In this document: piece by piece, positions 2,451-9,576 of the stretch
How the letters are laid out: each line of letters opens with the position of its first letter
Position numbering within the stretch: position 1 is the stretch's first letter
DNA from: Erysipelotrichaceae bacterium
GTDB lineage: Bacteria; Bacillota_I; Bacilli_A; Erysipelotrichales; Erysipelotrichaceae
Reading direction: 5' to 3'
Assembly (NCBI GenBank): GCA_024681275.1
Contig: JAILBD010000188.1
Span: forward strand, 1-11,067
Length of the DNA stretch: 11,067 nt
Notes under the pieces: model-generated
The model's input: only the letters and a program-made list of their open reading frames with translations
What the model was told of the DNA's origin: nothing
Databases searched by the model: none
Program-made: the position numbers and the translations under genes

Positions 2451-2476
2451 AAAAAAAGAGTTTGCACTCTTTTTTT
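2451..2476. terminator. Bidirectional terminator between convergent genes
   Basis: A perfect 11-bp inverted repeat, AAAAAAAGAGT (2451-2461) and ACTCTTTTTTT (2466-2476), encloses a TTGC loop. Each strand ends its stem in a run of seven T. It sits between the convergent RpiR-family and GH1 genes, and its last base is also the first base of the GH1 stop codon. Confidence 0.85.
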
Positions 2477-3948
2477 CAATCCAGATCTTCGCCATTGGAA
2501 GCGATGACCTTCTTGTACCATTCATAGGAATCCTTTTTGCTGCGTCTCAAGGATCCCGTTCCATCATTGTGACGGTCGACATAGATGAAACCGTATCTTT
2601 TCTTCATCTCACCTGTTCCGGCCGAAACGATATCGATCGGGCCCCAGTAGAGATATCCCATGACATCGACTCCGTCCTTCACCGCTTCCTTGATCTGCTT
2701 GAGATGTTCCCGCATATAGGTCACCCGGAATCCGTCATGGATCTGCCCGTTCTCATCAGGTCCTTCATCCAGTCCGACTCCGTTTTCAACAATGAACATC
2801 GGCAGATGATACCTGTCATACACCGCATTCAGCACATATCTCAGACCCTGCGGATCCACAGCCCAACCCCATGGTTCAGGAGCCTTGAATCTCAGATACG
2901 GATTTTCCCTTCCTCTCAGTCCGCCGGTATCAAAAGTGTTGATCGTATCCCTGGAATAAGTGCCGGAAAGATAATAGCTGAAAGAATAGAAATCCACCGT
3001 ATGATCTTCGATCATCTTCAGATCGCGATCATCATATTCCGGCTGCAGTCCTTTCTCTTTCCAGATCCGTTTGACATATCCGGGAATGAAGCCGAGGCAG
3101 AAAGGATCAGAGAAATAGTAGTTGGAGAATCTCTGGGTCTGGAAAGCTCCCCATACATCATCCGGATCGCAGGTATAAGGATAGACTGCCACGGCAGACG
3201 AACTCATCATGCAGCCGATCCGGTTGCCCTGATCGATCTCATGACCGATCTTTACAGTCCAGGCATTGGCGACCAGCAGATTGACATAGGCCTGCCATAT
3301 CTCTTTGTCTGACACTTTCAAAGGATCGTTTTTATCGACAGGCTCAGTCGACAGGATACCGGCAGAAACGACAGGCCTTCTCAACAGATTGTTGATCTCA
3401 TTGAAAGTCAGCCAGAGATGTACTTTCCCCTTATATCTTTCAAATACAGTCATCACATATCTCTTCCAGAGATCGATCGTTTTCCTGTTTATCCAGCCGC
3501 CATATTCGGTCATCAGATGCAATGGCGTTTCATAATGTGAAAGTGTGACCACCGGTTCCATTCCAAGTCTGATCATCTCATCGAAAAGATCATCATAGAA
3601 CTGCAATCCCTTTACATTCGCTTCTTCTTCATCGCCGTTTGGAAAGATCCTTCCCCAGGCGATCGAAGTACGGAAACAGTTGAAACCCATGCCGCTCATC
3701 AGTTCCAGGTCTTCCTTGTATCTGTGATAGAAGTCGATACCTTCATGAGAAAGATAGACCTTGTTCTCATCCAAAGCCATCTCCCATTTCTTATTTTCAT
3801 CATTCCATCTCAATCCGGGCTCTTTGGAATTGATGCCGACCATCACATCGGTGATATTCGGCTGCTTGCCATCACTCAACCAGGCACCTTCACACTGATT
3901 GGCAGCCACGGCTCCGCCCCAATAGAAATCATCACTAAAAACCGACAT
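2476..3948 (-). CDS. GH1 6-phospho-beta-glucosidase
   Basis: This 490-residue family 1 glycosidase cleaves the beta-linked disaccharide phosphates or aryl-glucoside phosphates delivered by PTS import, in the cytoplasm. TFNEIN (181-186) holds the acid/base Glu184, and IVENG (386-390) holds the nucleophile Glu388. [20 protein letters not shown] near 435-454 is the phosphate-recognition segment. Ser442, Lys450 and Tyr452 are in the arrangement that separates 6-phospho enzymes from plain beta-glucosidases. The N-terminus [16 protein letters not shown] is the usual sugar-binding start. The ribosome site AAAGGAG lies 9 bases before the ATG. It is the last gene of the operon that starts at the sulfatase, 55 bases after the LacI gene, and ends in a strong terminator. 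No frameshift or missing catalytic residue is seen. Whether it acts before or after desulfation is unknown, and it could also serve the first PTS. Confidence 0.95.
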
Positions 3949-4003
3949 AAAAAACTCCTTTCAAAAAGTCTTCTTGAATAAGCATCTATATCTGAACGAA
4001 ATA

Positions 4004-5035
4004 TTACAGAGTCAGATCCCTGACTGTTTCCCTTTCAACGATCCGGCTTTCAGAACGATATGATCTGAGTTTCTTTTCGATCTTCTTATCGGGCTTTCCA
4101 TTGATATAGGAATCCAGACAAATGACCAGATCTTTAAAGTAATCGCTGTATTCGGATTCCTGTGTCGAAGTCGTCAGAGGCGGGACAGTTGAAGAAGAAG
4201 CCGGGATATTGTGCTTGCCGATGACAGAAAGCTGACCAGGTATATCGATATGATGATCGTTGAAGCACTTCATCGCACCGACGGCGATATCATCATTGGA
4301 AAAGATGAGCGCATCCATATCATCGACCCTGTCCAGGATCTTTTCCTCCGTCACCCTGTAGCCATCTTCGCTTGCACTGCCTTCGGCATCGAAGATCAGT
4401 GACTCATCGACGTTCAAACCATGTTCTTTCATGGAAAGGCGATAACCGTTCATGGAACGGATCGTACCGTAAGACTGGGCAAAACCGGTCACGAAACCGA
4501 TGCGCTTGTGCCCCTTGCTGATCAGATACTCACAGGTATCAAGGGGCGCCAGTTCTTCCTGCATGACAAAGCTTCTGACAAAAGGATTGTCCGAATTGGC
4601 ATCATGTCCCAGCACAAAGATCGGGAAATGATCAGAAGCGCACTCTCCCAGCAATTCATCTTCGATCGTCTTGGTATAGACGATGACCGCATCCGACCTT
4701 CTCTCTTTGATATATCGTAAAGCCGTATCGCTGTGGCCTCCGTAAGTCGTCGAGATCAGGAAATCATATCCCATCTCAGCCGTGGCTTCCTGCAGCTTCT
4801 TGATCGTGTAGGAAAAGAAAGATCTGGACGCATCATAAACAACAAACAGGATCAGACCTGTCTTCTGTTTCTTCAGATCGACAGCAGCGCCATTGCGCAC
4901 ATATTTCATCTCTCTGGCCTTCTCATGGACCAGATCCCTCGTCTTCTTTGCGATACGCGGATCGTCATTGAGAGCCATCGAAACGGTCGATACAGCGATG
5001 CCTAATTCTTTTGCGATATCCTTGATCGACGCCAT
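4004..5035 (-). CDS. LacI-family transcriptional regulator
   Basis: The 343-residue protein starts with the textbook LacI headpiece: MASIKDIAKELGIAVSTVSM (HTH, residues 4-23). A hinge segment around AAVDL (50-54) follows, whose Leu54 is the likely minor-groove wedge at the centre of an operator. A periplasmic-binding-protein-like ligand domain runs from about 58 to 335. The start is fixed by the family N-terminus, but no Shine-Dalgarno sequence is visible before it. A hairpin lies just upstream at 5056-5075, and a TAAAAT element is placed so that initiation at or next to the ATG is possible. It lies inside the sulfatase-EIIC operon, before the GH1 gene. The two CpG-centred palindromes around the operon promoter are its probable sites, so it would repress its own operon until a sugar ligand arrives. 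The ligand is not predictable. Confidence 0.94.
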   Translation of the reverse strand: MASIKDIAKELGIAVSTVSMALNDDPRIAKKTRDLVHEKAREMKYVRNGAAVDLKKQKTGLILFVVYDASRSFFSYTIKKLQEATAEMGYDFLISTTYGGHSDTALRYIKERRSDAVIVYTKTIEDELLGECASDHFPIFVLGHDANSDNPFVRSFVMQEELAPLDTCEYLISKGHKRIGFVTGFAQSYGTIRSMNGYRLSMKEHGLNVDESLIFDAEGSASEDGYRVTEEKILDRVDDMDALIFSNDDIAVGAMKCFNDHHIDIPGQLSVIGKHNIPASSSTVPPLTTSTQESEYSDYFKDLVICLDSYINGKPDKKIEKKLRSYRSESRIVERETVRDLTL

Positions 5036-5055
5036 ACTTATATTTTACACAAGAA

Positions 5056-8349: not shown

Positions 8350-8379
8350 ATTCTATATATGCACTGTCATCTCTGTCAA
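8350..8379 (-). promoter_or_regulatory. Promoter of the sulfatase-EIIC-LacI-GH1 operon
   Basis: On the minus strand a consensus TTGACA (8374-8379) is followed by TAGAAT (8350-8355) after 18 bases. An overlapping TATAGA gives a 16-base spacer. Transcription would start near 8343, a few bases before operator O1. Operator O2 abuts the upstream side of the -35, so the promoter is boxed in by the two sites. Confidence 0.78.
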
Positions 8380-8385
8380 TAGAAA

Positions 8386-8401
8386 TTTGAAACGTTTCAA
8401 A
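8386..8401. promoter_or_regulatory. LacI-type operator O2 (16-bp palindrome)
   Basis: TTTGAAACGTTTCAAA is a perfect palindrome with the same core as O1; the centres of the two are 66 bases apart. Flanking AGAAA (8381-8385) and TTTCT (8404-8408) extend the symmetry imperfectly. It lies 6 bases upstream of the -35 of the sulfatase operon and about 78 bases before the anSME start codon. One bound repressor could therefore affect both directions. Confidence 0.82.
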
Positions 8402-8478
8402 CATTTCTGACAAAAAGTACTGTTTTTATATGAAAAAAGGCCTTTTTACGTTAAGATTAAGACAGAAAAGGTGTCAAC

Positions 8479-9576
8479 ATGGCTAAACACATATCCGTAC
8501 TGATCAAACCTGCCTCATCCCTGTGCAACCTGCGCTGCCGCTACTGTTTTTATCATGACATCTCCGAAAACCGCACGATCGCTTCGACCGGCATCATGAA
8601 AGAAGAAGTCATGGAAAAACTCATCGCCAGGATATCCGAAGAACTCAATGAAAACGGAACGGCATCCATCAGTTTTCAGGGAGGAGAACCGACGATGGCC
8701 GGACTTCCTTACTTCAGAAGATTCACGGAAACAGTACGAAGATATCCGAATATCAAACCGCAGTATTCCATACAGACCAACGCGACTCTGCTGGATGAAG
8801 AATGGACAGCCTTCTTCAAAGAGAATGCCTTTCTGGTCGGCGTCAGCCTTGACGGCTATCAGACCAACATGGACGAATTCAGGTACGATCCTTTGAAAAG
8901 AGGTGTTTTCTACAAAGTCCTCAAAGGCATCGATCTGCTTGGCAAAGCGGGAGTCGACTACAACATCCTGACCGTCGTCACTGCCCAGCTGGCCAGACAT
9001 CCGGATGCCCTGTTCAGATTCTACAAGTCACACAACTTCGAATACATCCAGCTGATCCCCTGCCTGCCGGGACTCAACGAGGAAAACAACGAAATGGCAC
9101 TCACACCTGAACTCTACGCATCCTTCTATAAGGATTTCTTCAAAGTCTGGAACGACGACTTCATCAAAACGGGCAAGCCGCTCAATATCAATCTCTTTGA
9201 AAACATCGCCGCCATGCTGGAAGGATATCCGCCTTATCAGTGCGGGATGCTGGGACGCTGCTCCCAGCAGTTCGTCATCGAAGCCAACGGCGACGTCTAT
9301 CCCTGCGACTTCTACTGTCTGGACGAAGTCCGCTTGGGCAATCTGCTGGACAGTTCCTTCAAAGAACTCAGACAGACTCAGACAGCCGTATCGTTCATCG
9401 CCTCATCCGATTGCAAAAAGAAGCCATGCGAAACATGCAGATACGTCAATATCTGCAACGGCGGATGCAAAAGACAGAATGTGTGTTATCTCACAGACGG
9501 GTATTGCGGATACCAGGAAGTGCTGGATCTCATCGTGCCTGTCCTCTATCAGTACATCAGACAGAACAGACGTTAA
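8479..9576 (+). CDS. Anaerobic sulfatase-maturating enzyme (anSME), radical SAM/SPASM
   Basis: The 365-residue enzyme oxidises the active-site Cys (or Ser) of sulfatases to formylglycine in the cytoplasm, using S-adenosylmethionine and three iron-sulfur clusters. The radical-SAM motif CNLRCRYC gives Cys16, Cys20 and Cys23, and SFQGGEPTMAG (about 65-75) is the SAM-contacting GGE region. The C-terminal SPASM part supplies Cys255, Cys261, Cys276, Cys317, Cys320, Cys326, Cys330 and, probably, Cys343. Asp277 in YPCDFY matches the catalytic Asp277 I recall for the Clostridium perfringens enzyme. Length is normal for the family. The start is supported by the canonical HISVLIKPASSLCN start; the ribosome site (AAAAGGTG) is moderate. 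It is divergent from the Cys-type sulfatase, its obvious client, and may also serve the sulfatase at the left edge. No convincing -35/-10 pair was found, but O2 lies in its upstream region, so LacI co-control is possible. Confidence 0.96.
   Translation: MAKHISVLIKPASSLCNLRCRYCFYHDISENRTIASTGIMKEEVMEKLIARISEELNENGTASISFQGGEPTMAGLPYFRRFTETVRRYPNIKPQYSIQTNATLLDEEWTAFFKENAFLVGVSLDGYQTNMDEFRYDPLKRGVFYKVLKGIDLLGKAGVDYNILTVVTAQLARHPDALFRFYKSHNFEYIQLIPCLPGLNEENNEMALTPELYASFYKDFFKVWNDDFIKTGKPLNINLFENIAAMLEGYPPYQCGMLGRCSQQFVIEANGDVYPCDFYCLDEVRLGNLLDSSFKELRQTQTAVSFIASSDCKKKPCETCRYVNICNGGCKRQNVCYLTDGYCGYQEVLDLIVPVLYQYIRQNRR

Follow-up and report, generated by a model that had tools for sequence, protein, structure and literature searches.

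What is a sulfatase without a signal peptide doing beside a PTS permease? Most of what is known about sulfated-glycan use in the gut concerns sulfatases that Bacteroides exports, and the available part of a review describes the GAG loci of gut Firmicutes as not characterized (PMC9067506). The window analyzed here, an 11,067-nt stretch from an Erysipelotrichaceae bacterium (GCA_024681275.1, contig JAILBD010000188.1, positions 1 to 11,067, forward strand), probably belongs to an island for the use of sulfated sugars through the PTS, in which the sulfatase SULF-1 would desulfate its substrate in the cytosol after import by the permease EIIC-2. Many related bacteria share the combination of an internal sulfatase with an importer of a normally sugar-phosphorylating type, which suggests a route to sulfated sugars that has seldom been described. 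A recurrent PTS-first and probably phosphorylating route in Bacillota would reveal how these compounds are processed by Gram-positive members of the gut flora and would explain the exporter-like genes found beside sulfatases.

Identity and localization of SULF-1

SULF-1 (6827–8305, minus strand; PF00884, 102 bits) has the fold and the Pfam match of the S1 formylglycine sulfatases as well as their motif, worded C/S-x-P/A-x-R in the available text of a study of Enterococcus faecium arylsulfatase EfAS (PMC12421950). The motif reads C49-M-P-A-R53 in SULF-1, and C49, P51, and R53 are present in 81/81 aligned rows. The first beta strand of the predicted model is formed by residues 2–8 and is followed by D9, itself conserved in 81/81 rows; because nothing precedes the catalytic core, the protein has no room for a signal peptide. 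The first-pass annotation of a Cys-type sulfatase lacking a signal peptide is thus borne out, and the link between a presumably cytosolic sulfatase and a PTS permease is supported as well. EfAS (PDB 9koq) is 20% identical to SULF-1 in alignment, and the words PTS, phosphotransferase, and operon do not occur in the available text on that enzyme (PMC12421950).

The solved structures nearest to SULF-1 by sequence include phosphonate monoester hydrolases along with promiscuous sulfatases, a result that counts against the island reading and invites the alternative that SULF-1 is not a sugar sulfatase and acts instead on an imported compound that carries a phosphonate, phosphodiester, or phosphate. 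Position 10, which is Thr or Ser and never Asp in 81/81 rows, also favors this alternative, but the recurrence of maturase and of TauE or ChrA genes beside SULF-1 relatives argues against it, and it is judged improbable. Phosphonate hydrolases of the sulfatase fold also require maturation, however, so that recurring maturase genes are not exclusive evidence for a sulfatase.

The SULF-1 cassette and its neighbors

Ten base pairs separate SULF-1 from the gene for EIIC-2 (5539–6816, minus strand), which scores 122.1 bits against PF02378 (cut-off 30.7) and is 82–83% identical to the EIIC proteins of the three closest cassettes (L001–L003). The earlier assignment to the lactose/cellobiose type holds at the level of PF02378 and of the best NCBIfam matches, TIGR00410 and TIGR00359 with equal scores, but the 188.5 bits against the Lac-family model TIGR00410 lie below its cut-off of 236. 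After a further 16 bp follows a gene for a putative 146-aa membrane protein (5082–5522, minus strand), proposed as an EIIC companion from its predicted model and its recurrence at other loci. Pfam, NCBIfam, and PHROGs gave no match to this protein; its model (pLDDT 85) comprises three long helices, six strands, and one helix, and its gene is present at 13/64 Bacillota loci from the best 80 of 473. A LacI-family regulator (4004–5035, minus strand; PF00356 and PF13377), 71–73% identical to the LacI proteins of L001–L003, lies 46 bp farther on and is separated by 55 bp from a GH1 gene.

Divergent from SULF-1 is a gene for a radical SAM/SPASM protein (8479–9576, plus strand), with scores over cut-off for PF04055 (60.3 bits) and PF13186 (37.4 bits). 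The anSME models PRK13758 (350.7 bits, cut-off 441) and TIGR03942 (324.8 bits, cut-off 349.45) are the two best of 63 NCBIfam families. Its divergent position and its domains agree with the sulfatase-activating anSME proposed previously, but since both curated models fall short of their cut-offs, the gene is named anSME-like. Its counterpart at the equivalent position in locus L036 shares 72% identity with it. Folding predicts a terminator-like hairpin after this gene (9579–9599, plus strand), and beyond it lies a pair of ChrA-type transporter genes on the minus strand (9604–10164, PF02417 159.6 bits; 10161–10721, PF02417 127.5 bits), 82% and 83% identical, respectively, to their L036 counterparts.

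In the preferred reading, EIIC-2, served by EIIA and EIIB from genes at another site, would import a sulfated sugar or glycoside of small size, most likely with phosphorylation of the sugar. SULF-1, presumably activated by its anSME-like neighbor, would then desulfate it in the cytosol, and the sulfate so released may exit via the ChrA pair. EIIA and EIIB genes are absent from the window, which ends inside a second sulfatase gene, and this absence counts against the island reading. Lac-type EIIA is encoded in 8/8 relatives' genomes, with EIIB adjoining it in 6/8 places fetched. Conserved residues also favor the island reading: Lac-type EIIC retains its His and Glu in 36/36 rows, and the EIIB cysteine is present in 34/34 Bgl-type rows covering that position.

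Linkage of sulfatase and PTS across Bacillota

Relatives of SULF-1 were surveyed at the best 80 of 473 loci, from which 64 Bacillota loci were chosen by record title; two of the surveyed loci (L011 and L073) lie on one chromosome. Gene calling used greedy ORFs, which were labeled by HMMs made from clusters of this analysis, and the PTS class was set by hand for L021 (Man type, EIIC confirmed) and L040. At 49/64 of these loci, the SULF-1 relative has a same-strand PTS permease no more than 1.5 kb away, compared with about 1.4 expected from the mean gene density of eight Solobacterium (Erysipelotrichaceae) genomes applied to all 64, a calculation that assumes independent loci, which these are not. 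In the sulfatase tree (81 rows, a quick build with SH-aLRT support only, midpoint-rooted for drawing), all 53 PTS-linked rows fall among the 60 on one side of a single branch, and none of the other 21 rows is PTS-linked. On the PTS side, the linkage rule finds no permease for seven rows, which counts against the island reading. At least six changes between Lac and Bgl PTS types occur among 51 rows of the tree, and the sulfatase-PTS pairing persists through these changes.

Relatives have 11–18 PF02378 matches per genome, and in genomes rich in both kinds of gene, permease and sulfatase might become neighbors by chance. Such an origin is scarcely credible given the 49/64 loci and the retention of the pairing across PTS types. 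In the genomes of eight relatives, 14/40 sulfatase-sized PF00884 proteins (frames of 425–547 aa) lie within 2.5 kb of a same-strand EIIC, compared with 0/31 of those of at least 600 aa; two short matches (135 and 242 aa) of the 73 found were dropped.

Among the 64 loci from the best 80 of 473, an anSME or FGE maturase gene lies within 10 kb at 27 and is absent at 37, and a TauE or ChrA gene is found within the same distance at 24 and is absent at 40; the occurrences favor the island reading, and both absences count against it. ChrA within 3 kb was observed five times, compared with 0.4 expected. The exporter-like genes also bear on the proposal that the island imports organic sulfate esters for their sulfate rather than for carbon. 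A cytosolic sulfatase would indeed free sulfate inside the cell, but the importer is a sugar PTS, exporter-like genes recur, and the regulators are of sugar type (LacI, RpiR with SIS, and PRD antiterminators), which makes a sulfur-supply role very unlikely.

Candidate regulatory elements

Two copies of the operator pattern TGAAACGTTTCA lie 66 bp apart (8322–8333 and 8388–8399, unstranded), downstream and upstream, respectively, of a promoter-like site, TTGACA-18-TAGAAT (8350–8379, minus strand). This site, with 11/12 matches, is the best of eight in the stretch, a number not above that of shuffled sequences. The operator pattern was found ahead of the cassette in 8/10 records scanned, comprising the window and nine loci, with the LacI-cluster loci L016, L019, L052, L064, L072, and L073 left out. 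LacI probably represses the cassette from the two operators flanking the promoter.

The gap from the 146-aa gene to LacI contains a terminator-like or attenuator hairpin (5056–5075, minus strand). Its folding energy of −18.3 kcal/mol (z −4.86) was reached by 0/200 shuffles, and hairpins are predicted at the equivalent place in L001–L003, folded there without shuffles and with L002 and L003 identical in sequence. The sulfatase, EIIC, and GH1 genes had been described as one operon. All share a strand and are separated by short gaps, but the hairpin stands between the sulfatase genes on one side and LacI with GH1 on the other, and the membership of GH1 is therefore not secure.

The place of the GH1 enzyme

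The GH1 protein (2476–3948, minus strand; PF00232, 378.3 bits) resembles the 6-phospho-beta-glucosidases. Its best solved-structure match is one of these, 6wgd (491.5 bits), and the seven best are named 6-phospho- or putative phospho-beta-glucosidases, although the 536.9 bits against the NCBIfam model PRK09593 lie below its cut-off of 639. The first-pass annotation had built on this enzyme a full pathway, encoded by a single dedicated operon, in which import phosphorylates a sulfated beta-glycoside, SULF-1 removes its sulfate, and GH1 cleaves the product. Phosphorylation at C6 of glucose would be compatible with a glucosinolate or a sulfated phenolic glucoside whose sulfate is on the aglycone. 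Consistent with this pathway, GH1 comes next after LacI in the same orientation and no clear terminator intervenes, and permeases of the Bgl type occur in many relatives, two of the four tested against the beta-glucoside family model TIGR01995 exceeding its cut-off. Companilactobacillus farciminis breaks down the glucosinolate sinigrin, a sulfated beta-glycoside, by means of a PTS and a 6-phospho-beta-glucosidase: a Bgl-type PTS imports and phosphorylates the compound, and a GH1 enzyme cleaves it (PMC8660893). The available sinigrin passages do not contain the word sulfatase, however, and the authors propose that the sulfate leaves by rearrangement (PMC8660893).

A GH1 gene lies within 3 kb at 7/64 Bacillota loci (from the best 80 of 473), near the roughly 3.3 expected by chance. 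The genes after LacI in L001–L003 are not GH1. None of ten stretches fetched around the closest GH1 homologues (65–76% identity) contains a sulfatase match, and three of the ten hold Bgl-type PTS genes. Each of eight relatives has 15–25 GH1 matches at E ≤ 1e-100. Together with the hairpin at 5056–5075, these results leave the 6-phospho-beta-glucosidase step unsupported as originally stated and the full pathway unlikely.

A candidate phosphate site and the order of steps

In known Lac-type systems, C6 is the site of PTS phosphorylation. If the same applies here, the substrate needs a free C6 hydroxyl, narrowing the candidates. The residues R123, K141, S145, and H or N149 occur together in 58/60 PTS-side rows and 0/21 rows of the other side; this signature was found by a position scan of 52 versus 28 rows, recounted at 60 versus 21, and rests on one branch of the tree. 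The seven PTS-side rows without a PTS also carry it, except that L014 has A at position 145. The basic signature R123/K141/S145/H149 is a candidate phosphate site, and such residues would provide a residue-level test of step order. As a tentative extension of the island reading, the PTS-linked sulfatases might be phosphosugar sulfatases that gained a site for the 6-phosphate and desulfate only after PTS phosphorylation. Phosphorylation could then serve as a check that orders the pathway, with the PTS families exchangeable around a constant sulfatase step.

Relation to known systems

The pairing of PTS and sulfatase has known precedent. The Streptococcus pneumoniae accessory island SPH1922–SPH1930, as described in the available parts of two reports, brings a Lac-type PTS together with a sulfatase and the enzyme that modifies it (PMC3283741, PMC3302838), and it shares with the window a sulfatase, a maturase, and a Lac-type EIIC. 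The generalization in the first-pass annotation that intracellular sulfatases pair with non-PTS transporters is accordingly incomplete. The pneumococcal island also encodes EIIA, EIIB, a TauE-type gene, and a sugar-type regulator, the last a ROK protein in place of the LacI or RpiR of the window. In the available text, its sulfatase had no activity on 4-methylumbelliferyl sulfate (PMC3283741), which counts against the island reading, and no substrate was found (PMC3283741, PMC3302838). In Gram-positive GAG loci and the Proteus vulgaris chondroitin operon, a putative sulfatase is likewise encoded together with PTS genes, but these loci, according to the accessible review passages, include a polysaccharide lyase and an unsaturated glucuronyl hydrolase (PMC9067506), neither of which is detected in the window by Pfam.

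A second PTS-sulfatase pair

At the window edge, a second sulfatase gene, SULF-2 (3–116, minus strand), missing from the earlier reading, is represented by its first 38 codons, the remainder being off the window. Its N-terminus is 92% identical to a full-length sulfatase of L036 (PF00884, 135.8 bits). SULF-2 adjoins EIIC-1 (182–1498, minus strand), a Lac-family permease over cut-off for both TIGR00410 (300.8 bits, cut-off 236) and PF02378 (147.3 bits, cut-off 30.7) and 89% identical to the EIIC preceding SULF-2 in L036. Divergent from EIIC-1 is an RpiR-type regulator with a SIS domain (1651–2430, plus strand; PF01418 and PF01380), 70% identical to its counterpart beside EIIC-1 in L036. EIIC-1 and SULF-2 beside RpiR would serve a different substrate or a sulfate at a different position. 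L036 and the window are collinear apart from one exchange: where the window has the Lac-type cassette, L036 has an EIIBC-SULF-1 cassette of the Bgl type. In L036, EIIB, EIIA, and TauE genes, also known from the pneumococcal island, come after SULF-2. The pneumococcal sulfatase primer in the available text, its codons read by eye, gives DQMRADAL, which resembles DQMRSD of SULF-2, unlike DTLTRNYL of SULF-1.

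Linkage of SULF-1 to PTS permeases

The first-pass annotation paired SULF-1, the Cys-type sulfatase at 6827-8305 on the reverse strand, with a PTS permease as a cytosolic enzyme, here the adjoining Lac-type EIIC-2 (5539-6816, reverse strand), and the neighborhoods of its relatives bear this pairing out. A genome collection scanned with a sulfatase alignment yielded 473 confirmed relatives, and the best 80 of the 473 were surveyed, comprising 64 loci from Bacillota and 16 from other groups. In this best 80, 49 of the 64 Bacillota loci carry a Lac- or Bgl-type PTS permease gene co-oriented with the sulfatase and no more than 1.5 kb away, versus about 1.4 expected when the mean gene density of eight relatives' genomes (Solobacterium/Erysipelotrichaceae) is applied to all 64 loci, treated as independent. 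The same rule is satisfied at one of the 16 loci outside Bacillota (L051, Collinsella), and ABC transporter genes occur within 1.5 kb at 6/64 Bacillota and 4/16 other loci. In 1-kb bins, 45 permease genes fall less than 1 kb from the sulfatase (32 upstream and 13 downstream); the adjacent upstream bin has 8, and the remaining bins have 0-4 each.

Across the eight relatives' genomes, a same-strand EIIC gene lies within 2.5 kb of 14 of 40 sulfatase-sized PF00884 proteins, the other 26 having no such neighbor, versus 0 of 31 PF00884 proteins of at least 600 aa. The PTS link is therefore a property of particular sulfatases. A relative of SULF-1 at E ≤ 1e-60 is present in 17 of 195 genomes drawn from the family of genome G001. 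In Holdemania (L021, 6971-9997), the SULF-1 relative lies behind PTS genes of sorbose/mannose type and a gene for an alpha/beta hydrolase, a third PTS type beside this group, with the EIIB type taken from the cluster representative. Another locus (L005, 9318-11129) carries a heparinase II/III-like gene (PF07940) in one gene run with SULF-1 and EIIC, a hint of glycosaminoglycan-like substrates in that lineage.

The SULF-1 start at 8305 is preceded by GGAGG, and the structure model places the first beta strand at residues 2-8, which leaves no space for a signal peptide ahead of the core and agrees with the first-pass annotation. At the positions compared with known sulfatase sites, D9, C49, P51, R53, H95, H97, H194, D274, H275 and K287 are invariant across all 81 aligned rows; position 10 is Thr in 67 rows and Ser in 14.

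Extent of the core unit

On the reverse strand, the window runs from the end of a gamma-glutamyltransferase gene through two ChrA genes, an anSME-like gene (opposite strand), SULF-1, EIIC-2, a 146-aa protein, LacI and GH1 to RpiR (opposite strand), a second permease gene (EIIC-1) and the first 38 codons of a second sulfatase (SULF-2). The initial reading, in which a single operon provides phosphorylating import of a sulfated beta-glycoside, cytosolic desulfation and GH1 cleavage, stands as real, conserved and functionally coherent with regard to the sulfatase-PTS link, but not with GH1 as a fixed part. The GH1 protein is a good family member by its closest solved-structure matches, and the relatives' genomes each hold 15-25 such genes. 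Bacillota loci with a GH1 gene no more than 3 kb from SULF-1 number 7/64 (expectation about 3.3); at a distance of up to 10 kb the count is 14/64, against about 8.9. In L001-L003, whose SULF-1 proteins are 82-84% identical to that of the window, LacI is followed by a hairpin and then by genes of branched-chain amino-acid ABC type. No sulfatase match was found in ten fetched stretches around the closest GH1 homologues (65-76%), three of which contain Bgl-type PTS genes. In the window a hairpin also lies between the 146-aa gene and LacI, and L001-L003 have one of different sequence at this position. Because GH1 linkage is weak and this hairpin intervenes, the core unit is SULF-1, EIIC-2 and the 146-aa protein with LacI, GH1 being an optional neighbor rather than a dedicated step of the operon. 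For a sulfated monosaccharide as substrate, a glycosidase would be unnecessary.

The 146-aa membrane protein (5082-5522) has no family match, and its gene adjoins EIIC at 13/64 Bacillota loci. Its model contains a C-terminal beta domain, the best matches to which are PH- and FERM-like and not significant.

Among 8 promoter-like sites in the stretch, a number not above that in shuffles, TTGACA-18-TAGAAT at 8379-8350 ranks first. Copies of TGAAACGTTTCA, the putative operator, flank it at 8322 and 8388. Pairs of TGAAACGTTTCA spaced 56-67 bp apart also precede the cassettes of L001, L002, L037, L039, L056 and L062, and a single exact copy precedes that of L003; among the 10 records examined, none was found ahead of the L004 and L010 cassettes, both of which lack LacI.

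Cassette exchange and a candidate phosphate site

A quick tree built from 81 sulfatases is split by one branch (SH-aLRT support 100) into 60 and 21 rows. The larger side, to which the window belongs, holds every PTS-linked row, 53 in total (27 Bgl, 24 Lac, 1 Man and 1 Lac at a distance), together with 7 in which the survey rule gave no PTS permease; the smaller holds 8 ABC-linked and 13 unclassified rows. The Lac/Bgl label changes at least six times across 51 tree rows. The strongest evolutionary case comes from L036, a locus of a goat-jejunum MAG titled Erysipelotrichaceae, in which gamma-glutamyltransferase (77% over 104 residues), the ChrA pair (83% and 82%), the anSME-like gene (72%), RpiR (70%), EIIC-1 (89%) and the SULF-2 N-terminus (92% over 38 residues) are collinear with the window. 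In place of the segment from SULF-1 through EIIC-2, the 146-aa gene and LacI to GH1, L036 carries another RpiR (30% identity to that of the window) and a cassette of EIIBC and SULF-1', the latter 53% identical to SULF-1. Within common flanks, one PTS-sulfatase cassette occupies the site of another. Past SULF-2, L036 continues with EIIB, EIIA, two GH1 genes and TauE; if its order holds here, these genes would lie just beyond the left edge of the window.

The combination of R123, K141, S145 and H149 (with N at 149 in some rows) is found in 58 of 60 PTS-side rows and in 0 of 21 on the other side, a signature that rests on one branch, goes along with general divergence and is also carried by PTS-side rows without a PTS. 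Position 149 is Asp in all 21 rows of the smaller side. In the model, a predicted helix (144-153) contains S145 and H149, and K141 sits just ahead of it. These residues could form a candidate phosphate site, with basic residues gained where PTS linkage arises. The idea that phosphorylation may come before desulfation is bold and testable.

Probable phosphate transfer, maturase genes and possible sulfate exit

EIIA and EIIB for EIIC-2 must be supplied from elsewhere. A Lac-type EIIA is encoded in 8/8 relatives' genomes, in single copy in 5 of the 8; at 6 of the 8 places fetched, an EIIB gene adjoins it. The EIIB cysteine is kept in 34/34 Bgl-type rows covering the site and a His and a Glu are invariant in 36/36 Lac-type rows, and RpiR genes lie within 10 kb at 35/64 Bacillota loci, a SIS domain being demonstrated for the RpiR of the window. 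These features support phosphate transfer in such PTS systems. A sulfated sugar would most likely be phosphorylated on import.

Genes for anSME or FGE lie within 10 kb at 27/64 Bacillota loci, and TauE or ChrA genes at 24/64. ChrA occurs within 3 kb of the sulfatase five times versus 0.4 expected (64 Bacillota loci), and ChrA pairs within 10 kb at 10/64 versus about 1.1. From position and family names, the ChrA pair or TauE could be sulfate exporters. The two short ChrA-type proteins of the window (9604-10721) adjoin the anSME-like gene.

Known systems and the second PTS-sulfatase pair

A pneumococcal island described in 2012 without a substrate contains a sulfatase, a modifying enzyme, two Lac-type EIIC, EIIA, EIIB and TauE (PMC3283741, PMC3302838), and a review mentions glycosaminoglycan loci with a PTS and a putative sulfatase (PMC9067506); PTS-linked sulfatases are therefore already known as a kind. 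A printed primer suggests that the island sulfatase is of the SULF-2 type. In the literature searched, which covers few subscription papers, no account was found of the SULF-1 group, of its association with more than one PTS type or of the exchanged cassettes, nor of the paired operators, the 146-aa protein beside EIIC or the signature of basic residues.

At the left edge of the window (3-1498), EIIC-1 (182-1498) and the start of SULF-2 (3-116), both on the reverse strand, lie beside the divergent RpiR. SULF-1 and SULF-2-like sulfatases, the latter defined by a match to the 38-residue N-terminus at E ≤ 1e-4, share one locus in 8 of 80 cases (L004, L011, L017, L029, L036, L041, L051 and L073), perhaps reflecting two sulfate positions of one substrate. 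Relatives of the EIIC-1/SULF-2 pair occur in L036, L105, L106, L107 and L108; in L107, TauE sits between the two.
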